DNA of 64,000 nt, taken from assembly GCF_001593005.1 (NCBI RefSeq), contig NZ_LQZQ01000052.1, positions 1 to 64,000 of the forward strand, in the 5' to 3' direction. Shown here in pieces: positions 6,957 through 24,659 of this stretch. The DNA is from Roseivirga ehrenbergii (lineage in GTDB: Bacteria; Bacteroidota; Bacteroidia; Cytophagales; Cyclobacteriaceae). Both the position numbers and the translations under genes were made by a program. The notes under the pieces were generated by a model. The model was given only the letters and a program-made list of their open reading frames with translations, searched no databases and was not told the DNA's origin. Each line of letters starts with the position of its first letter. The first letter of the stretch is position 1.

Positions 6957-8588
6957 CTATTTTACTATAGCTAATTCTACTCGTCTGTTTTTTGCCCTAC
7001 CTTCTTTAGTACTATTATCAGCTCTCGGATTGGCTATACCAAAACCTTCGGCAGAAATCCTATTTTCAGTAACTCCTTTTGAAATTAGATACTCTTTTAC
7101 TGAATCTGCTCTTTCCTTGGATAATTGAAGGTTAGAGTCCGCATTCCCGCTATTGTCAGTATATCCTCTTATCGCCAATTTAAGATTGTTGTTTTCTCTA
7201 AAAAGAGCAGCCACTTTATCTAAAGAAGTCAATGAGCTTTCAGTTAAATTGCTACTGCCACTACCAAATGATATCTCCTCTGTTGCCATAATTAAAACTT
7301 TTGCAATCTGAGCTTCAGCCTCTTTTCTCTTCGTTTCTTCTCTGGCCAATCTTTCAATTTCTTGCAATCTTAAACGCTCTATTTCAATTGCTTCCCTTTC
7401 TCTTTTCAAACGTTCTTGTTCCTGCTGTTCGGCTTGTAGTTTGGCCAACCTTTCTTTTTCTAACTTGGCCAGCTCATCGGACTTTACTTTAGCGAAAAGC
7501 GCCTGATATGCGGCTTCAGCATTTAGGTTTATTTCCTTCCGCTTGCCTTCTTCTAAGCCTCGGAAATAGCAAAGGGCCTTTTCTCGGTCTTCTAGTTTTA
7601 CCAAGTTTTCATCATAAATACCTTGGTCAATAATCGTGTTCACTACTTCTTCTCCGGCTAGAGCACAGTCTTCTTTAACTTTGGTATCCAATTTAAGGTG
7701 AAGCCCAAACTCATTGAAGCCATCGGCCAAAAATGGAGTGTCTTTCTGACCGAAGTCATAATTGTAAGTAAACAGTATTTTCGGAAAAATTTGAACCCCC
7801 AGGCCAATAGAAACTCCAAAGTTATCTCGATAACCCAAAGTGGCTCTGAACTTATCTCTAAAACTCATTTCGCCTATAATATCCAGTTCTGCACCAATTG
7901 TCTCTCTGATTCTCACTCCGCCATAAGGCGTAAAATTAATATCTGGATTGATGTCGAACAGATATCGAACTCCTCCAATAAAATCAGGGGCATTATCGTC
8001 ATTTATATGGGTATAGGCATCGTCCGACAAGCTTTCGTTGATTATGGTTGGGATAGCAACATCTACCCCAAATTTTCCTTTTCGGTAACTGGCTGACAAG
8101 TCAACGCTGAGTACAGATCCGTTTTGGCCTAAAATATCAAGCAAAACATTGTCCACTGGGTTTTCAGGATTGACCCTATCTTTATTCAAGCTAAATAGAG
8201 ATAACCCCAACTGTGCACCAATCGAAAGGCCTTCTTTTCCTTCTCCAAAAAGCTTATAGCCAATTCCTCCAGATATTTTTACCTGGCTAGTAAAGCCAAT
8301 GTCGGCTGTGGTAATATTCCCACTAAAGGCCGTTTTGTTTTTCACTGCTGTACTGTAAGCCAAAGCAAAGTTCTTAGGAGAACCCACCAGACCCCCAAAC
8401 TGGTCTCTGTAAACAAAGCTTACATAACGGTTCTCCTGAAAAACTGTGCCTGATGGATAAGCCAAGCTTCCTGAATAATAATATTGATTGAACAGCGGTA
8501 CTTGTTGTGCCTTTGCGCCTATTGCCATCAAAGCCATAGTAAAGACAAGGATGAATTTGTTTCTGAAGTTTTTCATTTGCTTATGCAT
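6957..8588 (-). CDS. PorP/SprF-type T9SS outer-membrane protein fused to an OmpA domain
   Basis: 543 residues. A signal peptide ends at GAKA (an alternative start at Met5 gives a cleaner one). Residues 28-305 are a PorP/SprF-like outer-membrane barrel, starting QQVPLFNQYYYSGSLAYPS. Residues about 325-430 are a charged coiled coil rich in Glu, Arg and Lys (LERLAREETKRKEAEAQ-like). Residues 431-543 are an OmpA peptidoglycan-binding domain with the core IRGYTDNSG, LSKERADSVKEYL and GRAKNRRVEL. PorP/SprF proteins assist T9SS export or surface docking of proteins with a type B C-terminal domain. The gene starts 11 bp after the stop of the giant type B protein, so that protein is very probably its partner. 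The OmpA tail would anchor it to the cell wall, an arrangement longer than a classical PorP of about 300 residues. Confidence 0.88.
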   Translation of the reverse strand: MHKQMKNFRNKFILVFTMALMAIGAKAQQVPLFNQYYYSGSLAYPSGTVFQENRYVSFVYRDQFGGLVGSPKNFALAYSTAVKNKTAFSGNITTADIGFTSQVKISGGIGYKLFGEGKEGLSIGAQLGLSLFSLNKDRVNPENPVDNVLLDILGQNGSVLSVDLSASYRKGKFGVDVAIPTIINESLSDDAYTHINDDNAPDFIGGVRYLFDINPDINFTPYGGVRIRETIGAELDIIGEMSFRDKFRATLGYRDNFGVSIGLGVQIFPKILFTYNYDFGQKDTPFLADGFNEFGLHLKLDTKVKEDCALAGEEVVNTIIDQGIYDENLVKLEDREKALCYFRGLEEGKRKEINLNAEAAYQALFAKVKSDELAKLEKERLAKLQAEQQEQERLKREREAIEIERLRLQEIERLAREETKRKEAEAQIAKVLIMATEEISFGSGSSNLTESSLTSLDKVAALFRENNNLKLAIRGYTDNSGNADSNLQLSKERADSVKEYLISKGVTENRISAEGFGIANPRADNSTKEGRAKNRRVELAIVK

Positions 8589-8599
8589 GACTTTGATGA

Positions 8600-8905
8600 T
8601 TATCTGTTTCTAATGATGGTCAAGAAGCCTTTAATAGTTCTGGCTGGTGTGGTGGACTGGGCATCTGCGTAGATGAGAATCTCATAGTAATAGGTTCCAT
8701 CTGGCACCGGATTCTCCTTGAATGTTCCTGCCCAATCGTTAGAGTAATTCACTTTGCTATAGATGAGCTTTCCGCCCTGAGCAAAGATTTTCACTTGGTT
8801 GAACGGGTTGTCGAGCAAGTCTTCAATTACCCAGGTTTCATTGACCCCATCACCGTTTGGCGAGAATACGTTTTTCACATCGGCACCCGGCTGGTTCTGA
8901 GTATA
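8600..8905 (-). other. Type B T9SS sorting domain (CHU_C/gliding-motility C-terminal)
   Basis: This is the last 100 residues or so of the giant protein. The diagnostic elements are FSPNGDGVNETWVIE, VKIFAQGGKLIYS, WAGTFKENPVPDGTYYYEI and a closing IKGFLTIIRNR. Type B domains direct export through the T9SS and in known systems depend on a PorP/SprF partner, which is the next gene. Confidence 0.92.
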
Positions 8906-11900
8906 CTCCCTCACCGGCTCGGCCACCACATCTTCAATGGTTATACTGAAGGTTTGCTCAAAAGTAAGCCCTCCTGCATCGGCTACCTGCACACGAATGC
9001 TTCGGCTTGCCCCATCTTCAAAATCGATGGCTCCCGCTGTGCTCAAGGTGTTGCCACTAATGGCAAACTGCGCATTGTCATCATCGCCAGCACCAGCCAC
9101 TAGACTATAGGTGAAGATGTCTCCATTGTCTGGGTCGAGCGACATAAGCAGACCTACTTCCTGAGCATCATCGGCTTCTTCAATGGTGGCATTCGTAAGG
9201 CTCAGCGTAAATGGTGCTTCGTTTACATTGGTTACCGTAATTTCAAAGGCCTTGACAAAGGTTCCACCTTCTCCATCGTTGGTTTCAATACGAACAGAGT
9301 AGCTGGCTTTATCTTCAAAGTTGAACGAAGTGTTGTTCGCCTTTAAGGTTGAACCGGCCACCGTGAAACTGGCATTGTCGGTATCTCCTGCCCCACTCAC
9401 CAATGCATAAGTGTGGGTGTTACCAGCATCGGCATCGGCCGTAGTCAGTGTTCCGATAGCTGCATTCAACGTATTGTTCTCTGCAATAGAACTTTCACTT
9501 AAAGTGATGTCGGTTGGAGCATTGTTGAAGTCATCGTTAACAATGGTTACTGTTGCCTCATCGCTTATATCTACTGCCAAAGATCTGCTCATATTGCTCA
9601 TTGAAACAGTCAATGTTTCATTGGCCTCAATAACCAGATCGTTGATTGGAGTTACGGTAAAGGTTTGTGTTTCTCCGGCTGTTCCGGCAAAGGTCAACGT
9701 TTTACCCACAACGGCTGTGTAGTCGCTATCGGCTAGTGTTGCTGTTCCATCAGCAGTATTCACTTCTACCGTAAATCCTCCCTGAACCGCATTGTCCAGA
9801 GTGGCTGTGATTGTAATCGCTCCGCCTCCTTCATTTCCGCTGGCCTCTGCAAGGGTTACAGCCGCAGCATCGTCATTCTTGATTGTCAATATGGCCTGAT
9901 CTGTGATTACAACATTGGCTGTGGTTCCGGCTAGGTTGCTCAATGAAACTGTAAAGGTCTCATCGGCCTCGAGTTTACTATCTACACCTGGAGCAATATC
10001 CAGCTTTTGAACCTCGCCATCTGTTCCGCTGAAGGTCAATGTAGCACCACTAACAGCGGTGTAGTCTCCATCGGCCACCGTAGCCGTGCCATCGGCAGTC
10101 AATAAATCAACCGTAAATCCGCCTTCAATAGTCCCTTCAAGTGTAGCTGTCACTAAGAAGGACTCTCCATCTTCAAGCTGGCTCACATCTTCAATGGTCA
10201 CCTGTGCATCGTTGTTCACAATGGTATAAGTGTACACCGTATTGGTACCCAAGCTAGCACCAGAGGCGTTGGATAGGGTAATCACTACCGTCTCATTTTC
10301 CTCAATGAGTGCATCGTCAACAATTGTCAGGTCTATCGTTTTGCTTAAGTCTCCTGCTGCAAAGCTGACCGTACCATTAGCAAGGGTGTAATCAACTCCC
10401 CCCCCTGTGGCCGTACCTGTTACTGTATAGTCAACTGTTGCCGCAGAAAGACCGGCCTGATCCAAGTTCACCACAATGCTACTGTTGGTCAGAGATTCTG
10501 CATTACTTTGGGCCGTTGTGTTGAACGAAACTACTGGCACATCATCGTTTAGGATGGTTATTGTGGCCTCATCGGTAATGGTCACTGTGTTATCAGCACC
10601 AGTTACCAGGTTGCTCATGCTTATGGTCAGTGTTTCATTGCCCTCTACATCAGAATCCGCTGTTGGGGTAATGGTGAAGGTCTGGGTTTCTCCTACTGTT
10701 CCTGCAAAAGTGATGGTTTGTGAAGTAACTGCCGTATAGTCTGTTCCTGCAATGGCTGTACCGTCAGCAGTACTTACATCCACAGTAAAGCCACCTACTA
10801 CAAAGGCATCAGAGGTAAGGGCAACAGTTATGGCACCATCATCTTCATTGGCCGATACATCGGCAATGGTTACGGTGGCGGTGCATGACTGCGAGTCGTT
10901 CTCTATTGTCCAGTTGAAGTTATCGATCAAGGACTGTCTCGCTGATGCACCTGCACAGTATTGTAAGCCTTCCACTCCGAATTCCACATCATCTTTTACC
11001 TCCTGAGCAGCCCATCCAATAAGCGTGGCATCGTAACTTGTCACCGACATGCCCGTGTTGCTAAAGATTGCGTACATCCCATCAATATTCGTCACGTCCC
11101 AGCTACTCAGGTTTTGATTGAATGCAGTAGCGTTTTCAAAAACGCTGCTCATACTGCTGAGATCGGCTGAGAATGTCCATCCACTTATATCCTGATTGAA
11201 TACTGCTGCATTCTTAAACATGCTGTTGATGCCCGTAGCGGCACTCATATCCCAGCCGCTGATGTCTTGATTGAAGGCACGCGTTCCTCTGAACATACTG
11301 CCAAAACTGGTTACTGAGCTTACATCCCAGTTCCCAATATTCTGATTAAAGGACTCGGCATTTTCGAACATGGAACTCATGTCTACAATATTGCCAGTCT
11401 CCCACGTTGAAATATCCTGATTAAAGGCCGCTGCCTCATAGAACATCTGGTTTAGCCTATCAGCATTAGGGAACCTCCATGAGCCAATATCTTGGTTAAA
11501 TGATCTGGCATCTCTGAACATGGCCGTAAGGTTTTCGGCATTGGTCGGCTGCCAGTTGCCTATGTCTCTATTGAAAGAGTGAGCATCTTCGAACATCCTT
11601 TCCAGCTTTGTGGCATTCGAGACATCCCAGTTGCTAATATATCCATTGAACGTATCGTTATTCTGGAACATGGCTTGGAAAGTCTCCACTTTACTAACAT
11701 TCCAACTATTCAAATCTTGATTGAAGCCATCCGCATCGTTAAACATGGCGTTCATCTCTGTGACATTGCTCACATCCCAACCATCAATATCTTGGTTGAA
11801 GACCTTGGCGTCATCAAACATATTGGACATGTCAGTGACGCTGCTCACATCCCAGCCAGTGATATTTCCATTGAATAGTTCTGCATTATCGAACATCTTC

Positions 11901-14900
11901 TCCATGGTAGTTACATTGCTGACATTCCATGAATTGAGATCTTGATTGAACAATGAAGCATCGGCAAACATGGACGACATAGATGTTACCGAACTTACAT
12001 CCCAAGCGTCAATTGGTTGATCAAAACTCTGAGCATAGCTGAACATATAAGACATATCCTGAACAGCGGATGTATTCCAGTTGGAGATGGATGAATTGAA
12101 TTTTTCAGCCTGAGCAAACATGTAGGACATGTCGGTTACTGCACTGACATTCCAACCACTTATGTTTCCATTGAAATCGCTCTCTTTGAACATTTCAGAC
12201 ATATCAGTGACCGTAGAAACATCCCAAGAGGTTAAATCTGGATTACCAACGAAGGTTCTCTCAAACATTCGTTTCATCGAAGTGACCTGCGTAAGGTTTG
12301 GAGCATCAGTAGCGTTGATATCGAAATCGGCAGCGATAAATGCTCCTTCCATACTCTTCCACTCAATATCACCCCATTGTTCAACAGACCTCAGTCTAGA
12401 GAAAGACAATTCAAACTGTGGAAACTGCCCGCTTACCTTAACAGTGTAAGTACCCTCTGCCACATAAGTATGTGAGGCTGCACCCGTCTGGTTTGTTTCA
12501 ACGGTGCCATCTCCCCAATCGATGTCGTAGAGATAGGTGTGATTCCCCAAAGTGTTGAAGAGTGTTCTAGAACGATTCACATCTCTGCTGGTTATCTCCC
12601 AAGTGGTAATGAATGGTTTTTGCTCTACGGCAAGGGTTCCGTTCACCAAATTGAGGTTATAGTTGGAGGCCGCTCCTCCCGACAGTGTGATGGCATAGGT
12701 ACCCACTGGGCTCGACTCATTGGCAGTTGTGGCTATGGTCGGTTCCGTGATATTGGCTTTAGAGTCTCCATTTACAAAACCAGAATAGGTAATGGTAAGC
12801 TCAGGATTGGCCTCTCTCAGGTATTTGGTCTGATCGTCTGCCGTTGCAATCAAATCGGCTTTTTCTATAGTCAGATCAGCACTCACAAAGCTTATGTTGT
12901 AGTTAGGATTGAATAAGCTACTTTCCAAGGCATAGCTACCTACATCTTCTCCATTAATTCTCGTGATTGCTCCACTGAGTTCATCTCCATTTTGCAAAGC
13001 CCCTTGCGTAAAGCTGTAATTAAAGGCTGGATCAGCATCGCCATAGGTTTTAGTTGCTGCTTGGGCTGTTATGGTCAGGCTTCTTTGTGAAATAGTGAAT
13101 ACTCCCGGAACAGCCGTTATTTCATAGTTGGTCGCATCGGCACCGTAAGTCAGGTTAATGGCATAAGTGCCCGGTGCTTCACCAGCATCTCTGCTTACGG
13201 TCACCACTTCATCACTACCTACAATAGAACCATTGGTCACTGTAAACTGTAAAGTCGGGTCTGAATCACCTACCTCTTTACTGAGATTGGTAGCGGTCAG
13301 TTCTATTGCTTTTTTACCAACTGTGATAGTGCCTTGCACTTGACGGGCAGCATATTCAGCATCTTCCGCGAGGTTGACATTTACTGTTATCTCACCAACA
13401 TTGCCCAAAGTAACGGTTGAACCATTGATGGCCGCCCCGGTCTGGTCATTGTTGAGGGTGTAGGTGATTGCTCCGGAAGAGTTGGTGGTAGCCAATAAAT
13501 CAAAGTCAGCATCTCCATAAGTCTTGGCTATAGCACTTAATGAAAGGCTTGGCCTTTTCTTGGTTATAGGCCCTACAGCCACACTTTCAATTGCGGTGCC
13601 ATTTACTTTGCCATCATTCGGTGTCACCTCAAAGCTGATATATTTGCCTGCATCGGCAGCCGTTAATACATAGTTGATTGTATTTGCTCCTGCTATTTCT
13701 GTTTTACCAGTTCCTGAATTATCGTCAGATCTATACCATTTGAAGCTGGAATTATCCGCATCCGATTCGGCATCTATAAAGTTATAGGTGGCTGTCAGAA
13801 CTTCATCGATGGTGGTTGTGCCCGAGACTTCCACTCCATTTACTGAAGGTGCTGTATTGCTTGCCAAAACAGTAATCGTAAATTCCTGATAGGTCTTATC
13901 ATCGAACTGATCTGCCAGCTCAAGTTGTACTGAATGTTCTCCCACATCTGCGGAAGAAGGGTTACCACTCAGTACAAATCCGTTTGCTGTAAGCCAAATA
14001 GGCCCAACTTCTATGGATAGAATTGGTACATCATTGTTCAGGTCTTCATAGGTGACGGTGTAAGTATACGTTTCGTTGTCCATCACAGTGGTGACGGCAT
14101 CGGAGGTAAAGGCTGGAGCAATATTGGTAAAGCCATCGTTAATTACTATTGACCCAAAGAATGTGCTTTCTTCTGCCGTTCCGGTCAATGTGCCATCGCT
14201 AGGCGTTACTTCAAAGCTTACATACTTGCCATTGTCATCATTCACAACAGTGTAGCTTTTGGTGGTTGCTCCTGCAATAGCTACTCTATTGGCACCTGCA
14301 GAATTATCGGCACGGTACCATTGGAAGGTTGTACCCGATTCAGGATCGTCATTTGCGTCTGAATACGTGTACGAACCTTCCAGTACCCCGTCAACAACCA
14401 AAGATTTCTTAATACTTACCCCCTGAGCTACAGGGGCTACATTGGCTTCTTTAACCGTGAAGTTCCAGGCGGATTGACTAGTCAATCCGGCCGAGTTGTT
14501 ACCATCTGCATCTACAAAAGCAGCAGCATCGAAGGTAACCGTGTAGAATTGTCCTTCCAGTAAATCCGTGCTTGGGTCGATGGAAACATTGGTGCCTGAA
14601 ACGGTTACTTCTGCTGAAGTCACATCGATTACAGTTGCAGTTCCCGTTACAGGTGTCAAGGTAATATTACCCGTTCCTTTGGTAACTGATTCGCTTAAAA
14701 CGAAACTGAGGTTTGCGTCTTTGGCCAAATCTATCGCCCCATCGGCTGGTACTGTACTTACAATAGTTGGCACCACAGCAGCCACTACTGGCCCTGCATA
14801 AGTGGCGAAAGCCTGTGATCCTGCGTCTGATCCATCGTTTGGCGTAACACCAAAAGTGATGAACTTCCCTACTTCAGAAGAAGTCAAAGTAAATGTGCTA

Positions 14901-17900
14901 GCCGTTGCCCCGCTGATGGCTGTTCTGTTAGCTCCAGAAGCATCATCTGCCACGAACCACTGGAGTGTTGAACCAGATTCTGCATCGGTATCTACATCTG
15001 AATAGTCGTAGTTCCCGGTCAGTTGCTGATTGGCTTCCAGGTTACCAGAGAGTGTTACGTTGGTGGCTACCGGAGCAGTGTTTGGCTGGCCAGCAGTTGT
15101 AAAGCTGATTGTGGTTGGATCAGTAACAGCTTCAGTCTTCACCCCGTTGTTGCTGATGAATGCCTCATTGTCTATCAATACATAATAAGCTGTATTGTAG
15201 GCCAGATCGCTGGTCGGGTTGATGGTCACTTTTGAACCGCTAAAGCTTAATGTATTGGCAGCAAAAGTCTCTACTATATTATCATTGGCATCATAAAGCA
15301 CCACATTGTTTGCAGCATCTCCACCTTCTCCGTACACATACGTCTGAACGTTTTCGCTGTAAGTCAATGTTATGTTGGCTGTTATGCTAACATCAGTAGC
15401 GACTGTTGCAGGGCTTGTATTTGTGAGTATAGGCGTACTTGGAAGGGACAATGTGGTAAATCGCCAGCTATTGGCATCAGATATACCCACATGATAGCGG
15501 GCCCTTTCTTCTGTCACAATAAAACCATCATCCAGTAGCACATAGTATTCTGTACCCGGTTCTAACTCGCCTTCTTCAAATTCAAAACGAATCTGTGGCT
15601 CACCATCACCATAGTCGAGATCACGATCATTCTCTCCACCAAACTCGATGGTTTTGACCAATTCATCATTCGAAGCTTTGTAGATCCTGAATGCCCCAAT
15701 GGGATCACGGCTGATACCCACGTTCTCGCTGGTGTACAGCACAAGGTCTTCTTCGGAGTCTGCCGCATAGGTATTGCTCCCTGCAGATGGGAAGAAACGG
15801 GTAATGATGTTTTCTGCAAAAGACTCTCCGGTGAAAGTAAAGGTGGTTTTATCATCAATGGCTTCTATCAGCTTAGTGCCAGCTGCGTTTTTAATAAATC
15901 CTGCTGATAGCTGCACATAGTATTCCGTGCTCGCTTCCCAGTTATTGGCAAATGTGGCTCTTACCCAAGGCGTTGTGACAGCATTGGCGATCGACATATC
16001 CTCGGCAGTTACTGAACCAAATTCGCTATCGTCAGATGCCCTATACACTGTAAGTGTACCCTCCCCTGCTACAATCTCCTCATCAAAGTAAATGAAGAGA
16101 TTATTTCTTTCAATTTCAGCATCTTCAGTAGCACTTGGTGATGTTGATGAGATATCAAGAGCAGGAAGTGGTTCTGTAACATTAAGCATGACTGTTTCAG
16201 ATCTCTCTTCGCAGTCTCCTTTGGTGACTATTACAAAGTATTCACTTTGATCTGTATCAGTAGTGATATTGTTGATGGTTAAGCTATTTGAATCTGCACC
16301 AGTCATTTGATCGTTCGCATCAGCATTAGCATTGTTTTCTATCGACTCGCTGAGTTGTATAGAACCAATACCATTTCCTGTAGCGAGATATAATACACCG
16401 TCTGAAAAAGACATTTTCTTGATTGTATTATTAGGAAGTGGGTTTTCTGAAGTACTATTGATCACTTCCCATTGCATAGCTTCAGGTCTTAAAATACCTA
16501 AACCAGCACCCCCGCCAGCATAATAAACGGTACCATTGTAAACATATAAAGCACCTTTGTTGGCATTATTGTTCGGAAAACCATTGCCATTGCTTGTATT
16601 GTGAACTTCCCAAGCGGATTCATCTGCTCTTAAGATGGCTAAACCACCAGATGTACCTGCATAAATGGTTTCTTCATCTATAAAAACAGAACTTGTTAAA
16701 TTATTTGGATAGTTATTGCCACTATCTACATTATGAACCTCCCATTCACTACTTTCAGGTCTTAAAATGGCCAAGCCTCCATGTGTCGCTACATAGATGA
16801 CTTCATCCTGAACAAAAACGTCATTGATGATATTGTTTGGAAAATTAGTAGTGGCACTACCCGACCTTGTATTGTGCTGTTCCCACTGTGAGGAACCTTC
16901 TTTTAGTATCATTAAACCATAAGAAAACGTCCCCACATACAAGTCGCCATCAACAACACTCACAAAGGTGGTAGCATTATTTGAGCCTAAATTTGGGAAG
17001 CCATTTCCGGTATATCGATCTACTATTTCCCAATCAGTGGTACCCTCTCTTAAAATGGCGACACCTCCTCGATTGGTTGCGGCATAAATGTTACCATTAT
17101 GATAAAACACATCTTCCACATCGTCATTTGGAAAGCTTTCACTTGTTGTAGTAGACACAATTTCCCACTCAGAAGCATCGGCTCTTAAAATCCCTAGACC
17201 TTCGCTGGTTCCTACCAGTAAGTTACCATCTGCAGCATAAGATGATTGTAGAAAATCTCTGGGTAAATTAGCTCCCGTACTCGTGTTTATGGCCTCAGGA
17301 TTAGCCTCATTCACAATCCTATTCCATTGATAATCAGCACCTGCAATTTCTGGTATAGAAAAAGTAACGCTTGTTCCTTCTAGACCCGCCTGATCAGTAG
17401 GCTGTGAAGTAATTAATGGCGGGCAAGTCGAAAGTGTAAGGGTAGCCAAATCCGAGATTTCCACACAATCTCCTTTAGTCACTACTACAAAGTATTCGGT
17501 TTGATCGAGGTCTTCCGTAAGGTTGCTGATGGTCAGGGAAGCGGTTGTGGCACCGGAAATGGCATTCTGTACCGTAAGATCTGAACTACCCTCCATACCA
17601 ATGCTACTCTCAATCACAGTCAGCCCTTCACTAGTAAAAGCATAGATCGTCCCATCACTTCCCACTTGAACATTTTTGACATCATTTGAGCTTAAGCCAT
17701 TAGCCGTACTGAGCAAATCATAACTTCCTTCGCTATTGGAGATTTTGAGTCCTTCTGGTGTAGCTATATACAGTTTACCATCTGGTCCGATCGATACGTT
17801 TCTAATATCGGTACTACCAAGAGTTGACTCAGAAAGGGACGTGAATGACTCTCCATTATCATAAGATAATTCTATACTATCGACAGCACTGGCACCAGTT

Positions 17901-20900
17901 CCAGAAGTAGACACTAAGAATAAAAGATTATTATATTTTATAATATTACTTACATAATCTGATGAGAGTCCATTGGCGGTCGTTTTTCTGGTAAAGGTAT
18001 CGCCACCATCTTTTGAGATATACAGGCCATTATAGGCTGTCAGGTACATCGCCCCATCGTACTCTCTAATCTGTGTTACTGCAACAGCCTGTATACCGTC
18101 AGCCGTTATCGTTTTTTTGGCAAAGCTTTCTCCTCTGTCTGTCGAAACAAAAAAGCCATCATTGTAATATGCATATACCCTGTCTTCTTTTCCAAAAACA
18201 ACTTCCCAGAGACTTCCGTTGCCTCCCTCTAAGCCGTTTTCGTCCTTTTTGATTTCTTTAAAGGTTTTGCCACCATCATAGGAAAGCGCAATTCCATCAG
18301 TTCCCCCTTGATAAACCTGATTGCCATCGGCATAGATGGAAGAACCACTTCTGTTGGTGCTAATGTCTATCCAGGTCTCACCATAGTCCGAGGTATAAAA
18401 CGATTTACTCTGATGACCTCTCATGTAATAATTACTACCCTCAGCATATCCGGAGAAAGCAATGCCGTGATCAAACCCAATATCCGCTGCGTCAATGGTA
18501 CTGTATTTATACTCTTTTTTGAACCACTGATAACTCGCTCCGGCCACCTCGGGCACTGAGAAAGTAATACTGCCCCCTGCAAATGCTGACTGGGCTTCCG
18601 GTTGGCCAAGTACCAAGTCTTCACAAATTGTATGGAAACTCCAGGTGTCTTTATCGGCATAAGCAAGGTTACCTATATTGTTGCCACCTTTTACCAAATC
18701 GGCATCAAGTGTGATATAGTATTGCGTGGCGTATTCCAGCGAAACACCTGAGGCAATAGAAACCGTGGTGCCATCAATGGTTAAATCATCGGCTGTGAAG
18801 GTTTGCACCAAGGCATCAGTAGCATAATTAATTATTTTGAGCTCTCCTGTGCCTTTGGAGACAGGCCTGCTAAACTCAATGCTCAATTCGGTATCGATAG
18901 CAATATCCGTAGTACCATCGGCTGGGGTAACGGATGTAATTCCTGGAACATCCAAGACCGTTAATAAAACATCATCCGATTGTGACTTGCAACCATCCTT
19001 TATAACCTCCACGAAATATATATTTCCGTTCTGCTCTAATGTTACGTTGCTGATGGTCAACTGGTGGGTTGTTGCCCCCTCAATAAGGTTAGTTGATCCG
19101 CCATTTTGATCTTCAAGCCTAAGATTGCTTTTGTAGATCGAAAGACCTACTAATGTACCCACCTCCAACTGTCCATTATATTCATTAAGGGACTTTACGG
19201 CTTTCGTAAATGGGTCTGAAGAAGGAAATCGACTAAATGAATCTCCTTGATCAGAAGATACAAAGAGCCCTCTGCTTGTACCTACAAAGAGTTGTCCAGC
19301 GAATTCGTAAATGGCATTCACGAGATGCCCGTTAAAACCATTGGCTTCTGTAATGGTTTTGGTAAAAGACTCACCAGCATCCGTAGAAATAGAAATAGCT
19401 CCATCTTTAAAATCCGCTGTTTGTGTACTTACATAAAGCGTATTTCCAGATTTATAAACATCTCGAATACTATTGAAGGCAAGACCATCTGTAATAGTCT
19501 TCTGAATAAAAGTAGCGCCATTATCATTTGAAATAAATAGCCCTTCACGGCTTCCTACGTAAAGAGTTCCTTCCACCTCATAGAGTACTTCAACCATTCC
19601 TGTAACATCCGAATGTTTGCTGAAATTTGCCCCCCCGTCAGTAGAAACATGTAATCCGTTTAGAGCTCCTATATAAATAGTCCCATCTTCCGCTTTCATT
19701 ACAGTCTGAGGTAGATTAGCGCTGGCATTTGGGGTAACTTGAAAAAGTGTTTGGAAACTGTTACCTCCATCTTTTGAAATACTAACAGCTTTATTTACCT
19801 GCACCGCATAGATATTATCATCAAAGATCTTTATCTCTTTAATATCATCTATAAGCAATCCATGAGCAGTGTTTCTGATAACCCAAGTATTTCCCTCATC
19901 GGTTGTATAATAAATACCTGCTGTTGAAGTAGCGCTGTAGATGGTGCCATCTGGTGACCGATATATGTCCCTTAACAACAACTCTCCAGTTATATTTACA
20001 TCGTCAAAGCCTTCCTCTCTTTTATACCATTGATAAGACGCACCGCGTATTTCTTCTACTTCTAAGGTTACATTGGTAGATGCTACAACTGTTTTTCCAA
20101 CTGGCTGCATAGGCAACAAATTGGTATAGCTAAGACTAAATTCATCTGATTTTTGGAACAGCGGTGTACCATAAGTTACAGAATAAGCTGTAACACCCTC
20201 TTCCACCGTAATGTTGCCAGTGGCATCGGTGCCAAACTCGGCTTCTCCCTTTTTCCATGAGAAGGTACTATTAGCCAGAGCGTTATAATCGGTCAGCTCC
20301 ACTTCTTCAGTAGTAATCACCATAGTCTCAGGATGAGAAATCAACCCATCGTGCCCATTACTTGTAAGGTCTCGCAACCGGTTATCGGCAATGCCCGGTA
20401 AAGTACCATAAGCTGCTACCAGGTTTGGGGAGTTATGGGCTGGTGCTGTTGCCATAATGTCGGCTATTTCTTCCTGTGTAAGTACTTTGTCCCATATGGT
20501 GATTTCGGCCAGTTTGCCATCCATCTCTTGTTCATAGCCATTATCGTTGAGTTTCGCACCAATAGTGGCAAACCAGCTGGCACTAAGGCTCAGGTCCAAA
20601 ACACCTGTACCGTCTTCAATGCCATTTACGTATACTTTTGTCTGTCCTGTGGTTTGATCGTAGGTATACCCCACAAAGTACCAGGTATCGTTAGCAAGTG
20701 CGGTAGTACCGGCCGTGAATATTGAATTATTGACACCATCCCACAAGGCCAATTGCTCACTGCTACGGATATAAAACCGGCTCATGTTACTCACATCAGC
20801 GTCTTGAAAAACCAATATTTCATCAAAATTCCCACTACCAATGCTACTTTCTTTATTAAGCCACATAAATGCCGAGTAGCTTTTTCCCTCCAGATCTTTG

Positions 20901-23413
20901 GACAAAGAATTACTGATATCCACGCGATTGAATTCGCCCTCTTCAAAATCGAGGTAGTTTACCGCACTGGTACTTACCGTTCTGGTAATTGGGTCGTCTT
21001 CACAAAGCGTTTCATCTGCAATTAGGTCTACTGTTGTCGCATTAGTGTTAGTAGTCAGTGTCCATGAATCTGAGCTTTGAATAAAGCTTCTGGTAGCTAT
21101 AAACTCATAACTTCCTGCGGCTACATCAAATGTATAAACTGGAGCAGTTGAAACTTCGGAACCGTCTTTCTTCCATGAGATATTTTCGTACCAGTCAATG
21201 GCATTAAAGCCCGGAATAGACTGCACATTTTGAAAATCAACCGTGAAGTCATTGACCATTACCCCATCATTGCCTTTGCCTGAGTGGTCTTTTAAAACAT
21301 CCGTTGCATCATCACAGTCCCCAAAAACAGAATAGTACCCTACTAAGTTGTTATACTTAGGGTGACCATTGTTGATCCTGGCTTTCATGGCTTGCCTAAT
21401 ATCAGCTCCTGTCAGCACCTCATCCCATACCGAGATTTCTGCCATCTCGCCATTATAGAGGTCACTAATACTATTGCCATCAAACTCCTGACCCAATGAA
21501 TATTGTGCGGTTACATTAGGGACAGAAGTTCTAGTAGTGAAGCGATCATTTTCAATCCCATCTACGTAAGTCACCGTTTCCCCTGAATTGTGATCGTAGG
21601 TCCAGCCCACATAGTGCCATACATTGCCTCCCATGTTGTAAGATGCAGACTCGTTGGTGCTTCCTCCTCTGTTTACTTCCAGATTGTCTGAACTAGGATC
21701 AATCCAAATGAAAGACAGGTTATCTCCATTTGCCGCATTCACGGCAAAGAGTGCCTGATTAGTAGTAGTATTATTTTCAGCCTTGACCCACATAAAGACA
21801 GAGCGGCTTTTTCCATCTAAATCATCCTGTAATGCATTTAAGTTCACCCAGAAATCCTGTGTCTTATCGAAAGAAAGTACTCCTGTAGCATTGGTATTGG
21901 CCTGGTAAGTAACGGAGCCTGATTGGGCTATGGTGGCGTTTTGGAAAACGTCTACACCTTGTTCGGTACTTTGAAAAGTAACCAGGTAGCTGACTCTTTC
22001 AGTTGGGGTTTCAAAAATATCATATCTACCATCAGTAGTAGCACTTGTGCCATTCGAGAAATCATAAGAATCTCCGCAAACCGCCACTTCCTGTGTGGTG
22101 CAGGTGACCCCGGCTGGGCAATCTGCCAGAACCCTAACCAATCCTACCCTATCCATGCCGTTGGCATCAACACCCGGAGCCCCGATGGCCAGTATCAGCC
22201 CATCACTTGATGCAGATACGGCATGCCCCAGAACGTCTCCATCCATTTGACCAGTGATCTGCAAGTCTTGCATTACCCACTCGCCTCCATTAAAATTGTA
22301 GACCTTGACAGCACCCACTTCATCTGTGGTTTCGTTTTGGTAATTAGACGCTCCAACGAACAAAGTATACCCTGCAGGGGTAAGGTCTATACTGTTTCCA
22401 AAACCTTCTCCACTTGCTCCTTCGAGTCTACTTCCCATCGCTGTCCATTCCGGATTTCCCAGAGCATCAGTTCTAAGTTTATATACATCGACTGCACCGG
22501 TTGAAGACGAAGAGTAACTTGCAATGGCCAGTATTTCGCCATTAAAGGATGTGGCGATGTCAAATCCATGAAGTCCTCCCGAACCATCTAAGAACCCCGT
22601 TCCTGACCAGGTGTCATTATCATTTTTATAGGTATATACAGTATTTGCATTCGAAACAGCATTTGCCCAATTGGAAACGAATAATCGGGAAGCATCCCCC
22701 GAAAGCTTTACCGTCATGCCAAAAGTATCTACATTCAGACCACTCAAGAGTTGACTTCCTACTTGACTCCACCCCGAATTACCCTTTTTATAGGTCTCTA
22801 CATAACCAGCCCGCGCACGGATATTGTCAGGGTCGTCAGTTTCTTCTTTTGGCCTATGAGCACCGACCACCAGATAGGTGGCATCTGCAGAAAAGTCGAT
22901 GCTTATTCCAAAATGATCATAGATGTTATTTCCTCTTAAGATATTTCCTTGTTGAACCCAGTCTCCACCAGTAAAGGCATACACCTTTACCGTACCTTCT
23001 CTTTCCTGATCTGTAGAATCATGGGCATTGCCAATAGCTATGGTCTGACCATCATCAGAGATAGCCAAAGTCACAATTTCACCATCCACATCTTCAGTGT
23101 TAATGGCCGAACCCATCAAAACCCAAGCGCCACTCTGCTGTTGATAAACACTGACAACCCCCACATCGTTGTTTTCATCTTCAATGTATTCGACCGTAAT
23201 ATAAGTAGTGCCATCTCCTGAGAATTTTACAACATCTCCCAGCTCCCCTCTTTCGCCTATCCCTATTACATCCTGACCTATTTGCTCAGTAAACTGTGCA
23301 GTTGCTGTAATAGGAAGAATGGATAAGCTTAAGAATAACAGAAGTCCAAAAAAAGAATAGATGACTCCATTATTCTTTGAACTCTTTGAAGAGGTATTAG
23401 TTGAGCGTCTCAT
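8600..23413 (-). CDS. Giant T9SS-secreted multidomain surface protein (about 4,940 residues)
   Basis: Residues below count from the upstream Met at 23473. A hydrophobic signal peptide ends at ITATAQ (residue 60). Then follow: a seven-repeat FG-GAP-like propeller (61-455); two LamG/concanavalin-like domains (about 538-728 and 844-1038); three Ig-like domains each carrying an inserted propeller (1110-1505, 1620-2012, 2020-2428) with a Big_5 domain at 1508-1618; more Big_5-like domains and three PNDG-type Ig-like repeats (2430-3300); a He_PIG-like domain (about 3122-3208); MBG-type repeats (about 3306-3620); a PKD-like WGDGT segment; sixteen BspA/DUF285 repeats (about 3730-4150); four Calx-beta domains (4195-4654); two cadherin-like domains (4655-4850); and a type B T9SS C-terminal domain (VFSPNGDGVNETW). 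It is probably exposed on the cell surface as an adhesin or motility protein like SprB. I prefer ATG 23413 because a candidate operator lies 10 bp upstream of 23473. The downstream PorP-OmpA gene is in the same operon. Confidence 0.92.
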   Translation of the reverse strand: MRRSTNTSSKSSKNNGVIYSFFGLLLFLSLSILPITATAQFTEQIGQDVIGIGERGELGDVVKFSGDGTTYITVEYIEDENNDVGVVSVYQQQSGAWVLMGSAINTEDVDGEIVTLAISDDGQTIAIGNAHDSTDQEREGTVKVYAFTGGDWVQQGNILRGNNIYDHFGISIDFSADATYLVVGAHRPKEETDDPDNIRARAGYVETYKKGNSGWSQVGSQLLSGLNVDTFGMTVKLSGDASRLFVSNWANAVSNANTVYTYKNDNDTWSGTGFLDGSGGLHGFDIATSFNGEILAIASYSSSSTGAVDVYKLRTDALGNPEWTAMGSRLEGASGEGFGNSIDLTPAGYTLFVGASNYQNETTDEVGAVKVYNFNGGEWVMQDLQITGQMDGDVLGHAVSASSDGLILAIGAPGVDANGMDRVGLVRVLADCPAGVTCTTQEVAVCGDSYDFSNGTSATTDGRYDIFETPTERVSYLVTFQSTEQGVDVFQNATIAQSGSVTYQANTNATGVLSFDKTQDFWVNLNALQDDLDGKSRSVFMWVKAENNTTTNQALFAVNAANGDNLSFIWIDPSSDNLEVNRGGSTNESASYNMGGNVWHYVGWTYDHNSGETVTYVDGIENDRFTTRTSVPNVTAQYSLGQEFDGNSISDLYNGEMAEISVWDEVLTGADIRQAMKARINNGHPKYNNLVGYYSVFGDCDDATDVLKDHSGKGNDGVMVNDFTVDFQNVQSIPGFNAIDWYENISWKKDGSEVSTAPVYTFDVAAGSYEFIATRSFIQSSDSWTLTTNTNATTVDLIADETLCEDDPITRTVSTSAVNYLDFEEGEFNRVDISNSLSKDLEGKSYSAFMWLNKESSIGSGNFDEILVFQDADVSNMSRFYIRSSEQLALWDGVNNSIFTAGTTALANDTWYFVGYTYDQTTGQTKVYVNGIEDGTGVLDLSLSASWFATIGAKLNDNGYEQEMDGKLAEITIWDKVLTQEEIADIMATAPAHNSPNLVAAYGTLPGIADNRLRDLTSNGHDGLISHPETMVITTEEVELTDYNALANSTFSWKKGEAEFGTDATGNITVEEGVTAYSVTYGTPLFQKSDEFSLSYTNLLPMQPVGKTVVASTNVTLEVEEIRGASYQWYKREEGFDDVNITGELLLRDIYRSPDGTIYSATSTAGIYYTTDEGNTWVIRNTAHGLLIDDIKEIKIFDDNIYAVQVNKAVSISKDGGNSFQTLFQVTPNASANLPQTVMKAEDGTIYIGALNGLHVSTDGGANFSKHSDVTGMVEVLYEVEGTLYVGSREGLFISNDNGATFIQKTITDGLAFNSIRDVYKSGNTLYVSTQTADFKDGAISISTDAGESFTKTITEANGFNGHLVNAIYEFAGQLFVGTSRGLFVSSDQGDSFSRFPSSDPFTKAVKSLNEYNGQLEVGTLVGLSIYKSNLRLEDQNGGSTNLIEGATTHQLTISNVTLEQNGNIYFVEVIKDGCKSQSDDVLLTVLDVPGITSVTPADGTTDIAIDTELSIEFSRPVSKGTGELKIINYATDALVQTFTADDLTIDGTTVSIASGVSLEYATQYYITLDADLVKGGNNIGNLAYADKDTWSFHTICEDLVLGQPEAQSAFAGGSITFSVPEVAGASYQWFKKEYKYSTIDAADIGFDHGIAFSGYAEGSNYYMRGHQSKSFYTSDYGETWIDISTNRSGSSIYADGNQVYQGGTDGIALSYDGGKTFKEIKKDENGLEGGNGSLWEVVFGKEDRVYAYYNDGFFVSTDRGESFAKKTITADGIQAVAVTQIREYDGAMYLTAYNGLYISKDGGDTFTRKTTANGLSSDYVSNIIKYNNLLFLVSTSGTGASAVDSIELSYDNGESFTSLSESTLGSTDIRNVSIGPDGKLYIATPEGLKISNSEGSYDLLSTANGLSSNDVKNVQVGSDGTIYAFTSEGLTVIESSIGMEGSSDLTVQNAISGATTASLTISNLTEDLDQTEYFVVVTKGDCVEISDLATLTLSTCPPLITSQPTDQAGLEGTSVTFSIPEIAGADYQWNRIVNEANPEAINTSTGANLPRDFLQSSYAADGNLLVGTSEGLGILRADASEWEIVSTTTSESFPNDDVEDVFYHNGNIYAATNRGGVAILREGTTDWEIVDRYTGNGFPNLGSNNATTFVSVVDGDLYVGTFSYGLMILKEGSSQWEQHNTRSGSATTNFPNNIINDVFVQDEVIYVATHGGLAILRPESSEWEVHNVDSGNNYPNNLTSSVFIDEETIYAGTSGGLAILRADESAWEVHNTSNGNGFPNNNANKGALYVYNGTVYYAGGGAGLGILRPEAMQWEVINSTSENPLPNNTIKKMSFSDGVLYLATGNGIGSIQLSESIENNANADANDQMTGADSNSLTINNITTDTDQSEYFVIVTKGDCEERSETVMLNVTEPLPALDISSTSPSATEDAEIERNNLFIYFDEEIVAGEGTLTVYRASDDSEFGSVTAEDMSIANAVTTPWVRATFANNWEASTEYYVQLSAGFIKNAAGTKLIEAIDDKTTFTFTGESFAENIITRFFPSAGSNTYAADSEEDLVLYTSENVGISRDPIGAFRIYKASNDELVKTIEFGGENDRDLDYGDGEPQIRFEFEEGELEPGTEYYVLLDDGFIVTEERARYHVGISDANSWRFTTLSLPSTPILTNTSPATVATDVSITANITLTYSENVQTYVYGEGGDAANNVVLYDANDNIVETFAANTLSFSGSKVTINPTSDLAYNTAYYVLIDNEAFISNNGVKTEAVTDPTTISFTTAGQPNTAPVATNVTLSGNLEANQQLTGNYDYSDVDTDAESGSTLQWFVADDASGANRTAISGATASTFTLTSSEVGKFITFGVTPNDGSDAGSQAFATYAGPVVAAVVPTIVSTVPADGAIDLAKDANLSFVLSESVTKGTGNITLTPVTGTATVIDVTSAEVTVSGTNVSIDPSTDLLEGQFYTVTFDAAAFVDADGNNSAGLTSQSAWNFTVKEANVAPVAQGVSIKKSLVVDGVLEGSYTYSDANDDPESGTTFQWYRADNSAGANRVAIAGATTKSYTVVNDDNGKYVSFEVTPSDGTLTGTAEESTFFGSIVINDGFTNIAPAFTSDAVTTVMDNETYTYTVTYEDLNNDVPILSIEVGPIWLTANGFVLSGNPSSADVGEHSVQLELADQFDDKTYQEFTITVLASNTAPSVNGVEVSGTTTIDEVLTATYNFIDAESDADNSSFKWYRSDDNSGTGKTEIAGANTINYVLTAADAGKYISFEVTPNDGKVNGTAIESVAVGPITKKRPSLSLSAIAKTYGDADFDLLATTNSSGAITYTLNNDQTGAAINGSTVTLGNVGEITVNVNLAEDAEYAARQVQGTITVGKKAIELTATNLSKEVGDSDPTLQFTVTNGSIVGSDEVVTVSRDAGEAPGTYAINLTYGADATNYEITAVPGVFTISQRSLTITAQAATKTYGDADPAFNYSFTQGALQNGDELSGAITRINGEDVGSYALESSLFNPNYNISFVSADLTIEKADLIATADDQTKYLREANPELTITYSGFVNGDSKANITEPTIATTANESSPVGTYAITLSGGAASNYNLNLVNGTLAVEQKPFITTWEITSRDVNRSRTLFNTLGNHTYLYDIDWGDGTVETNQTGAASHTYVAEGTYTVKVSGQFPQFELSFSRLRSVEQWGDIEWKSMEGAFIAADFDINATDAPNLTQVTSMKRMFERTFVGNPDLTSWDVSTVTDMSEMFKESDFNGNISGWNVSAVTDMSYMFAQAEKFNSSISNWNTSAVQDMSYMFSYAQSFDQPIDAWDVSSVTSMSSMFADASLFNQDLNSWNVSNVTTMEKMFDNAELFNGNITGWDVSSVTDMSNMFDDAKVFNQDIDGWDVSNVTEMNAMFNDADGFNQDLNSWNVSKVETFQAMFQNNDTFNGYISNWDVSNATKLERMFEDAHSFNRDIGNWQPTNAENLTAMFRDARSFNQDIGSWRFPNADRLNQMFYEAAAFNQDISTWETGNIVDMSSMFENAESFNQNIGNWDVSSVTSFGSMFRGTRAFNQDISGWDMSAATGINSMFKNAAVFNQDISGWTFSADLSSMSSVFENATAFNQNLSSWDVTNIDGMYAIFSNTGMSVTSYDATLIGWAAQEVKDDVEFGVEGLQYCAGASARQSLIDNFNWTIENDSQSCTATVTIADVSANEDDGAITVALTSDAFVVGGFTVDVSTADGTAIAGTDYTAVTSQTITFAGTVGETQTFTITPTADSDVEGNETLTISMSNLVTGADNTVTITDEATITILNDDVPVVSFNTTAQSNAESLTNSSIVVNLDQAGLSAATVDYTVTGTATGGGVDYTLANGTVSFAAGDLSKTIDLTIVDDALIEENETVVITLSNASGASLGTNTVYTYTIVNNDAQVTIEDVSQLEDGESFLVTATLEGTIEGGFTVDLLTADGTATVADGDYTAVSGATLTFSGTDGEVQKLDIAPGVDSKLEADETFTVSLSNLAGTTANVVITDQAILTIKNDDAAAVTLAEASGNEGGGAITITATLDNAVQGGFTVEVNTADGTATLADSDYTAVVGKTLTFAGTAGETQTFTVTPINDLVIEANETLTVSMSNMSRSLAVDISDEATVTIVNDDFNNAPTDITLSESSIAENNTLNAAIGTLTTADADAGNTHTYALVSGAGDTDNASFTVAGSTLKANNTSFNFEDKASYSVRIETNDGEGGTFVKAFEITVTNVNEAPFTLSLTNATIEEADDAQEVGLLMSLDPDNGDIFTYSLVAGAGDDDNAQFAISGNTLSTAGAIDFEDGASRSIRVQVADAGGLTFEQTFSITIEDVVAEPVREYTQNQPGADVKNVFSPNGDGVNETWVIEDLLDNPFNQVKIFAQGGKLIYSKVNYSNDWAGTFKENPVPDGTYYYEILIYADAQSTTPARTIKGFLTIIRNR
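11020..12245 (-). repeat. Sixteen BspA/DUF285-type 25-residue repeats (75-bp DNA period)
   Basis: Inside the giant gene, units of the form WDVSxVTxMxxMFxxAxxFNQDI repeat about sixteen times. The central units are closest to consensus; units 10-12 and the last one are degenerate (NWQPTNAENL, SWRFPNADRL). The family forms a leucine-rich-repeat-like solenoid used for binding. It is preceded by a PKD-like segment (DIDWGDGT). Confidence 0.85.
16190..17416 (-). other. Ig-like domain interrupted by a seven-bladed propeller, module 3
   Basis: Protein segment about 2020-2428. The Ig-like part begins SVTFSIPEIAGADYQW and resumes after the insert with NSLTINNITTDTDQSEYFVIV and KGDCEERSETVMLNV. Between them, seven units of about 45 residues follow the pattern IYxxTxGGLAILRxxxxxWEVxN...FPNN. 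They lack Asp boxes and look like a two-component-regulator-type propeller. The first strand (DFLQSSYAADG) may close the seventh blade. Confidence 0.7.
17438..18616 (-). other. Ig-like domain interrupted by a seven-bladed propeller, module 2
   Basis: Protein segment about 1620-2012. It begins SITFSVPEVAGASYQWFK and resumes with ISGATTASLTISNLTEDLDQ and TKGDCVEISDLATLTL. The insert of about 310 residues has seven units, most with Asp boxes (TSDYGETW, SYDGGKTF, STDRGESF, SKDGGDTF, SYDNGESF), as in sortilin/BNR propellers. Confidence 0.7.
18959..20146 (-). other. Ig-like domain interrupted by a seven-bladed propeller, module 1
   Basis: Protein segment about 1110-1505. It begins VTLEVEEIRGASYQWYK and resumes with IEGATTHQLTISNVTLEQNG and KDGCKSQSDDVLLTVL. 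The insert of about 310 residues has seven units with Asp boxes TTDEGNTW, SKDGGNSF, STDGGANF, SNDNGATF, STDAGESF and SSDQGDSF. The seventh blade (VGTLVGLSIYKSN) is without one. Confidence 0.7.
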
Positions 23414-23482
23414 AAAGTTGATGTTTCGGTATTCAATAGTTGGAAGCGAATAAACTCTGAGTTTTTCGCGCATGAAAAATTA

Positions 23483-23933: not shown

Positions 23934-24659
23934 TTACTCCACGCGAATCTTCTTCAGGAGGTCGTCACGATAGTTTTTTCCTATAGGGATTTGTTCACCA
24001 TTCATCAATACATAGGCTGAGTTGATAGCGTCCATATGATCCACATTGATGGTAAAACTGCGATGGGTGCGGTAAAAATTATTGGGCAGTCTTTCTGAGA
24101 GGTCAGTCAAGCTACCACGAATGAGGTGTTTTTGATCTTTAATCGTATAAACCTCCACATAAACATGATCGCTCTTTAGAAAACGGATGTCTTCTAGTTT
24201 AATCTTATGAAAGAGATTTTTCTCCTTGATAAAGATGGCATCTTTGATGAGCAGTTCTTCATCTACTTTAGTCTGACTCTTTTGCTCAGCATATTTATGA
24301 AGGGCTAACTCAATGGAAGTATAAAGGTCGTCTTTCTTGAAAGGCTTAACGAGGTAAGCAGGAGGGGCAACCTTTTTTACTCGTTCAATTGTGCCTGCAT
24401 CGGCATTGGAAGTGAGGAAAATGAATGGAAAATCAAACTGTTCTTTAATGGTCCAGGCCAGATCCACTCCATCCTTCTTCCCTCCTAGTTGAATATCCAG
24501 AATGGCGATATCGGGCTTTTCAGCCTCAATGGTTTCTATTGCTTCCTCGTAGTTGATGGCTGGTTCTAAAACTTCATAACCTAGGTCTTCCAGTATTAGA
24601 CAGATGTTATCTGCTATTACAATTTCGTCTTCAACAACTAAGATTTTAACCTGACTCAT
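23934..24659 (-). CDS. LytTR-family response regulator
   Basis: 241 residues. Receiver domain at 1-122 with acidic pocket Glu10/Asp11, phospho-acceptor Asp55 (AILDIQLGG), Thr83 and Lys105 (YLVKPF). LytTR DNA-binding domain at about 140-241 (IRFLKSDHVYVEV, RGSLTDLSERLPNNFYRTHRSFTIN, IPIGKNYRDDLL). Its start codon overlaps the stop of the upstream kinase gene by one base, so the pair forms a two-component system. The next gene downstream on the same strand is the giant surface protein, with LytTR-type direct repeats before it. Its regulation of that gene is an inference from position and operator geometry. Confidence 0.95.
   Translation of the reverse strand: MSQVKILVVEDEIVIADNICLILEDLGYEVLEPAINYEEAIETIEAEKPDIAILDIQLGGKKDGVDLAWTIKEQFDFPFIFLTSNADAGTIERVKKVAPPAYLVKPFKKDDLYTSIELALHKYAEQKSQTKVDEELLIKDAIFIKEKNLFHKIKLEDIRFLKSDHVYVEVYTIKDQKHLIRGSLTDLSERLPNNFYRTHRSFTINVDHMDAINSAYVLMNGEQIPIGKNYRDDLLKKIRVE

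Follow-up and report, generated by a model that had tools for sequence, protein, structure and literature searches.

Immunoglobulin-like domains split by seven-unit propeller-like inserts in a giant candidate adhesin of Roseivirga ehrenbergii

In a 64,000-nucleotide stretch of Roseivirga ehrenbergii DNA (contig NZ_LQZQ01000052.1, positions 1 to 64,000; hereafter the window), one open reading frame (ORF) of this marine bacterium encodes a giant protein of 4957 amino acids (aa), in which three immunoglobulin-like (Ig) domains (aa 1118-1510, 1619-2016 and 2019-2434) are each interrupted at one and the same site by a guest of seven propeller-blade units. Nested insertion, repeated three times, is supported by half-domain profiles, a test with joined halves, a natural uninterrupted copy and structure prediction, and we regard the nested Ig/propeller architecture as real and well supported; from it and its genetic setting we infer that the protein functions as an adhesin. 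The original prediction had placed three such domains at 16190-20146, and the borders are here corrected to 16172-20122. The ORF and the parts of the three modules are as follows.

8600-23473, minus strand: giant ORF, 4957 aa, with an FG-GAP-like N-terminal region, LamG-like, three Ig modules with nested propellers, Big_5, MBG, DUF285/PARCEL, Calx-beta and CHU_C
20021-20122, minus strand: Ig module 1, N-half, aa 1118-1151 (half-domain profile, 55.1 bits)
19091-20020, minus strand: propeller insert 1, aa 1152-1461, 310 aa, seven units, six Asp boxes (blade profile and model; Sortilin-Vps10, 48.5 bits)
18944-19090, minus strand: Ig module 1, C-half, aa 1462-1510 (half-domain profile, 85.9 bits)
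18629-18946, minus strand: Big_5 between modules 1 and 2, aa 1510-1615 (Pfam)
18518-18619, minus strand: Ig module 2, N-half, aa 1619-1652 (half-domain profile, 59.5 bits)
17567-18517, minus strand: propeller insert 2, aa 1653-1969, 317 aa, seven units, five strict Asp boxes (blade profile and model)
17426-17566, minus strand: Ig module 2, C-half, aa 1970-2016 (half-domain profile, 85.0 bits)
17318-17419, minus strand: Ig module 3, N-half, aa 2019-2052 (half-domain profile, 57.5 bits; model strands 13-16, 21-24 and 32-38)
16313-17317, minus strand: propeller insert 3, aa 2053-2387, 335 aa, seven units, no Asp box (blade profile; model pLDDT 87.2, pTM 0.84)
16172-16312, minus strand: Ig module 3, C-half, aa 2388-2434 (half-domain profile, 83.8 bits; model strands 374-376, 382-386, 395-403, 406-409 and 413-418)

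For each Ig half, a hidden Markov model (HMM) was trained on sequences of the window and of relatives selected by motif, the window's own halves being in the training sets and the N-half set having also taken in, by motif, one unrelated domain (aa ~3258) of an uncultured Roseivirga (G010). Both models were run over ten proteins, i.e. that of the window, seven giants of the same genus and two sensor kinases without modules. The window protein contained three N/C pairs (N-halves 55.1-59.5 bits, C-halves 83.8-85.9 bits), and the eight giants together contained 19, with three each in the window, G010, R. spongicola (G012) and G006 (whose gene is cut by the contig end), two each in R. seohaensis (G005), R. 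thermotolerans (G016) and G009, and one in G007; N-half matches lacking a C-half partner (e.g. that of 22 bits at window aa 3024-3055) were not taken as modules. Eighteen of the 19 pairs enclosed 300-337 aa, and in one the host domain was contiguous. The window inserts (310, 317 and 335 aa, close to the predicted 310-340) all leave the Ig domain after strand C.

After removal of the insert, all 18 modules matched Pfam Ig_7 (PF19081, Ig-like domain CHU_C associated), as compared with 7 of 18 when left intact (both at E 0.1 or better). The first joined member scored 33.3 bits (cut-off 27.3) over positions 2-82 of the 84 in the family, whereas intact window module 1 matched positions 2-42 only. 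The 12 columns that were invariant across the 18 aligned modules all fell inside the Ig halves. The remaining pair, the third Ig domain of R. spongicola (L037:8725-9009), represents a natural uninterrupted copy with 17 residues between the matched columns, and within the whole protein it was recognised by the joined-half HMM as one domain of 62.9 bits. The same profile, although trained on interrupted domains alone, matched 109 of the 395 class genomes at a threshold of 1e-6, those of the window and R. thermotolerans included; in 29 of the best loci (two from one genome), 86 of 99 matches covered nearly the whole domain without a break (94 residues at most), and half-like matches did not occur. 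The host is a domain of the Ig_7 type, with members elsewhere contiguous (up to 94 aa measured) and the copies described here split after strand C. In a tree of 105 Ig domains, there were too few columns for the uninterrupted copy to be placed or the insertion to be dated.

As to the guest, a blade HMM located seven units in 17 of the 18 inserts and six in that of G007, each window insert having the predicted seven, some of them partial; several units in G006_1 and in both inserts of R. thermotolerans (G016_1 and G016_2) scored below 0 bits, and small matches outside the seven units (e.g. WIN_1 363-369 and G006_2 40-46) were not counted as blades. In 16 of 18 inserts the last unit lacked the outer strand, ending at HMM column 26 at the latest, and in two inserts the sequence at the start weakly matched the outer-strand part of the HMM (5.1 and 4.5 bits); such a match directly after the Ig half is what velcro closure of a propeller needs. 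Structure prediction, which the original prediction had named as a check together with the joining of the halves, gave a concordant picture. The AlphaFold2 model of module 3 (alignment of 13 rows; predicted local distance difference test, pLDDT, 87.2; predicted template modelling score, pTM, 0.84) consisted of three Ig strands, one short strand, six sets of four strands, three strands and then the remaining Ig strands. Thus, 28 blade strands separated Ig strand C from the remainder of the Ig domain, and from this order the first strand of the insert would complete blade 7. Modules 1 and 2 predicted together (six rows) had a like strand order, at pLDDT 73.6 and pTM 0.41, poorest at the start of insert 2.

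A Foldseek search with the model gave 4a2l as the best match (E 2.3e-14), and the Bacteroides sensor propellers matched are seven-bladed. For module 3, strand order, pTM and Foldseek matches agree, and the inserts may close as rings in three dimensions. The closest solved propellers are the sensors BT4663, BT3049 and BT4673 (4a2l, 3v9f and 3ott; 4a2l also the best match by profile, 3.6e-34) of hybrid two-component systems, which differ in being sensor domains of those systems. No best stretch in 45 matched sequences of the PDB spanned both Ig halves.

Inserts 1 and 2 carry Asp boxes, as the original prediction had it; boxes of the strict form (SxDxGxxW) were counted six times in insert 1, five times in insert 2 and not at all in insert 3, and two of the G010 inserts had none either. 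Insert 3 had been predicted to be a propeller of a different type placed at the same point. This idea did not survive a blade HMM trained on 15 inserts, with the three lacking Asp boxes left out and training unit borders taken from the first HMM: it found seven units in insert 3 (3.0-21.0 bits) and seven in each of the two G010 inserts. Among the controls, 15 shuffled copies and the stretches of FG-GAP, LamG and stalk gave no match, and two sensor kinases with regulator propellers gave one and two weak ones (0.7-2.8 bits). Since a blade profile that excluded them still recovers seven units in the inserts without Asp boxes, the guests belong to one family; a different propeller type for insert 3 is not supported, and only the Asp box is missing there.

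Host and guest differ in conservation. Over 153 module pairs, mean identity was 52% for the Ig halves and 25% for the inserts, and the halves were more alike in 150 pairs. Module 2 of the window and module 2 of R. seohaensis had halves 79% identical and inserts 24% identical, while insert 1 was 79-93% identical among the window, R. spongicola and R. seohaensis, with dN/dS (the ratio of nonsynonymous to synonymous substitution rates) of 0.16-0.28, and is under purifying selection. This contrast argues against one uniform fast clock for insert change, and some guests would have been replaced or rebuilt. Blades were more alike within than between inserts by 10.1 points, where 1000 shuffles reached 2.4 at most; this likeness was seen in 13 of the 18 inserts and was most marked in two of G010 (mean identity between blades 58.9% in G010_1 and 70.5% in G010_2). 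At the DNA level, these two still contained 135-bp tandem arrays (L032:12010-12774 and 13495-14242; 5.7 and 5.6 copies, 76 and 74% matches), whereas Tandem Repeats Finder reported no repeats in the window modules. The guests of some relatives are recent tandem blade amplifications.

Based on these observations, we consider it likely that the product is a giant surface protein exported by the type IX secretion system (T9SS), most likely an adhesin, whose split Ig_7-type domains project propellers sideways and whose guests are rebuilt at a fixed site. The chain would exit the Ig domain after strand C and supply the outer strand of blade 7, then form six complete blades followed by strands A-C of blade 7 in a velcro closure, and finally re-enter and finish the Ig domain. 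Because the chain leaves after strand C and returns to complete the Ig, the propeller would hang sideways from an unbroken stalk. Guest renewal would proceed by blade amplification and divergence at the one host site, and, as rebuilding stays within that site, binding could change with the stalk kept. Probably, then, the propellers protrude sideways and can change without disturbing the stalk.

The two faces of the predicted propellers were also compared. In an antiparallel blade, the A-B loop shares one face with the C-D loop, and the D-A and B-C loops emerge on the opposite face. With the Ig join at the C-D loop of blade 7, this topology would place the D-A and B-C loops opposite the join, free for a ligand. 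Six inserts, chosen for alike blades and not independent of one another, were tested, with loop classes derived from the module 3 model and the D-A columns of insert 3 taken partly from the other unit end. In all six, the D-A/B-C columns varied more than the A-B/C-D columns, and their dN/dS (0.44-1.56) was higher than that of the other columns (0.19-0.41). These results lend support to, but do not prove, a putative binding face directed away from the stalk.

For the distribution of the module, up to 14 candidate places per genome were scored in the class search and up to four in the order and phylum searches, so that absences in the latter two are weak. Among the matches listed, the order search (390 genomes) yielded seven over columns 1-396/397, in Roseivirga only, and two near-full ones in one genus of another Cytophagales family; the five full-length matches listed in the phylum search were all from Roseivirga, as were the four loci found by a genome contig search, and viral contigs contained no confirmed relative. 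In the other family (L107 and L108; 2 of 13 genomes of the genus), an Ig-like domain is apparently interrupted at the equivalent point, by 291 residues in one protein and 295 in the other. Each insert had six blade-HMM matches and is apparently an Asp-box propeller, and the L108 protein, scanned whole, contained further Ig_7 domains and a Por_Secre_tail T9SS sorting tail. The joined halves scored 18.7 and 14.4 bits with the Roseivirga profile (14.6 and 11.7 when the halves were swapped), no Pfam family reached its cut-off with them, and these Ig domains were on a long separate branch of the tree. We tentatively take this as a second occurrence of the arrangement, possibly an independent one. 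Three other candidates were dropped: G020 and G043 read as two-component sensors with regulator propellers, and G002, a giant with one uninterrupted Ig_7-like match, is an unrelated gene.

Several observations weigh against the reading of the protein as an adhesin with sideways, rebuilt propellers. The modules were found in only 8 of 19 Roseivirga genomes, and five of the 18 inserts, including inserts 1 and 2 of the window, lacked within-insert blade likeness. That the ring would close and the propeller project sideways is deduced from strand order, model confidence and Foldseek matches, of which the best-ranked had a TM-score over the query of 0.60; in the model of modules 1 and 2, domain placement is unreliable given the pTM of 0.41 and stretches under pLDDT 50. 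The uninterrupted R. spongicola domain, when searched alone, was matched as two stretches (43.1 and 32.1 bits) and had no Ig_7 match in the Pfam scan (best K319L-like_PKD, E 0.052). The loop contrast was weak per insert (permutation p 0.0145, 0.0165, 0.041, 0.071, 0.115 and 0.199; three of six below 0.05), and its loop classes were set post hoc, after the alignments had been seen. The C-D loop is also kept constant by Asp boxes on structural grounds, and loop variation on one face is common in propellers generally. Finally, the gene for a fusion of PorP_SprF and OmpA, described below, directly follows the giant gene in four of the six relatives in which the gene end is covered, hence not in all.

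Four other explanations can be set beside this reading. The architecture may be as described and the propellers be structural or protective appendages, such as spacers or protease-resistant bulk, without specific binding. Wide differences between orthologues in inserts at the same position would fit this, as would the fact that no glycosidase or lectin family appeared by name among the 25 Pfam families listed, of 41 in all, with the 18 intact modules; however, the conservation and low dN/dS of insert 1 in three species and the greater variability of the D-A/B-C loops in every insert tested speak against it, and we consider the explanation unlikely. That the inserts are enzymes of the Asp-box sialidase or xyloglucanase type displayed on a stalk seems more improbable still. 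Several glycosidase families typically carry Asp-box propellers, going by the title of PMC2716378, profile matches in the PDB extended to xyloglucanase-type chains (down to 6.1e-20) and, more weakly, to sialidase chains, and the NCBIfam model 'F510_1955 family glycosylhydrolase' gave 105.4 bits, below its cut-off of 175. Nevertheless, the best PDB matches by both fold and profile were to the BT4663 sensor propellers, and some relatives' guests are nearly symmetric, with blades 70.5% identical on average, so that a single distinct active site would be hard to accommodate.

Independent capture of different propeller families at the same host site, the version originally predicted, could draw on the three inserts without Asp boxes and on their Pfam matches, since insert 3 (Reg_prop, PorZ and KIB1-4) and the second insert of G010 (Reg_prop) matched these families in place of the Sortilin profiles. 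Against it are the seven units that the 15-insert blade HMM finds in each of these inserts, the identical site, and the shortening of the last unit at the same place in 16 of 18, which together make it hard to credit. The partial or missing Ig_7 matches of intact modules (positions 2-42 of 84 in module 1; 7 of 18 modules) might also be read as meaning that the flanks are small separate domains beside a free-standing propeller; with all joined halves matching Ig_7, an insert-free copy in nature, mostly near-complete contiguous and never half-like matches in 29 of the best loci of the class, and the predicted strands, this has very little probability, and we reject it.

The remaining features of the protein and its neighbourhood have the following positions in the window.

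22109-23293, minus strand: N-terminal FG-GAP-like propeller region, aa 61-455, borders by eye (Pfam FG-GAP_2, 38.3 bits, cut-off 23; seven units by eye)
8615-8881, minus strand: CHU_C / T9SS type B C-terminal sorting domain (Pfam CHU_C; NCBIfam TIGR04131, 52.4 bits, cut-off 35)
6957-8588, minus strand: PorP_SprF-OmpA fusion, next gene downstream of the giant (Pfam PorP_SprF, 125 bits; OmpA, 84.6 bits)
23934-24659, minus strand: LytTR response regulator, upstream, a synteny marker (Pfam)

The Pfam scan of the giant protein gave 14 matches at E 0.01, including LamG-like, Big_5, MBG, DUF285, Calx-beta and CHU_C. Judging from the sequence, translation probably starts at the second Met (aa 21), just ahead of a signal peptide. 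The expected attributes of a T9SS type B cargo were all found, i.e. the CHU_C C-terminal domain, SprA in the same genome (SprA_N, 538.4 bits) and the adjacent PorP_SprF gene, whose OmpA fusion product is likely the surface-attachment partner of the giant. The locus is largely syntenic among the relatives: a LytTR homologue precedes the giant gene in six of seven (one cut by the stretch end) and was not found in the G007 stretch, and the fusion gene, located before the giant gene in G007, was not found in the G009 stretch. Its product was 63-91% identical in five of the seven relatives' stretches.

At 17420-17425 of the window, modules 2 and 3 abut, neighbouring modules elsewhere being about 110 residues apart, as where Big_5 separates window modules 1 and 2. 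The stalk also contains a long array of DUF285/PARCEL (BspA-like) repeats (window ~11000-12400, aa 3690-4150, by eye; seven Pfam stretches). As regards the predicted N-terminal propeller, the FG-GAP identity stands by the FG-GAP_2 match, while its seven units are a count by eye. The N-terminal regions of the orthologues (window 22109-23293 and the N-termini in L032, L033, L034, L035 and L037) were, by eye, of three unlike kinds: 1) FG-GAP-like in the window and R. spongicola, 2) another in G010 and R. thermotolerans, and 3) a third in R. seohaensis and G006; among the five N-termini scanned, only that of the window had a Pfam match above the cut-off. From these three kinds, the tip of the giant seems to have been exchanged too.

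The arrangement has a counterpart in the RTX (repeats-in-toxin) adhesins AhLap, FrhA and MpIBP, in which, according to PMC12077191 and PMC10865825, Ig-like split domains project a nested ligand-binding domain from the stalk; the guests there are carbohydrate-binding, peptide-binding, PA14, RTX or vWFA domains, with the binding site at the farthest point from the join. In both systems, an Ig-like stalk domain is broken by a nested domain, the ends of the guest lie together, and the surface protein is a very large one of tandem beta-sandwich extenders. Unlike these adhesins with their type I signal, the Roseivirga giant has a CHU_C / T9SS type B C-terminus and a propeller guest, and the word 'propeller' is absent from the main text of the two papers. 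An Ig domain split by a nested domain is thus present, while RTX repeats and a type I secretion signal are not, and there was no RTX family among the 14 Pfam matches. The resemblance of the module to RTX split domains would seem to hold on paper, without the giant being an RTX adhesin. The original prediction's view of this as an unusual construction for a surface protein has to be qualified, since a split Ig with a nested domain is known, while the propeller guest and the T9SS setting differ. Among the open-licence PMC papers listed (titles and abstract starts), no description of an Ig domain split by a propeller was found, nor any paper combining a split domain, a propeller and an adhesin.

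Two further systems share single traits. Highly repetitive propellers amplified from single blades are described in PMC9218822; the relatives' guests resemble them in recent blade amplification and differ in being nested in a fixed host domain. The grappling hook protein GhpA of Aureispira (PDB 9flp, 5898 residues) has many Ig domains and gave 189.6 bits in total with the joined-half profile, at least six stretches passing, but the better of its listed matches were contiguous (~60-75 aa). A wider view is that of a dedicated, evolvable display scaffold: one fixed site of an Ig stalk domain would serve as a slot where propellers are wiped out and rebuilt time and again through blade amplification, their varying face kept opposite the join, and type I (RTX) adhesins, type IX adhesins and the second Cytophagales family would each have come to this solution independently; we put this forward as a possibility, and a rather doubtful one.

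For the biology of these bacteria, the finding would extend the split-domain principle of RTX adhesins to type IX secretion and to a new guest fold. It may also provide a sequence rule by which an Ig_7 domain split after strand C points to the likely ligand-binding parts of giant surface proteins of Bacteroidota, which are otherwise difficult to interpret. The orthologues, with the same host, unlike guests and one natural uninterrupted host, form a comparison set for the gain, rebuilding and loss of a propeller inside another domain.

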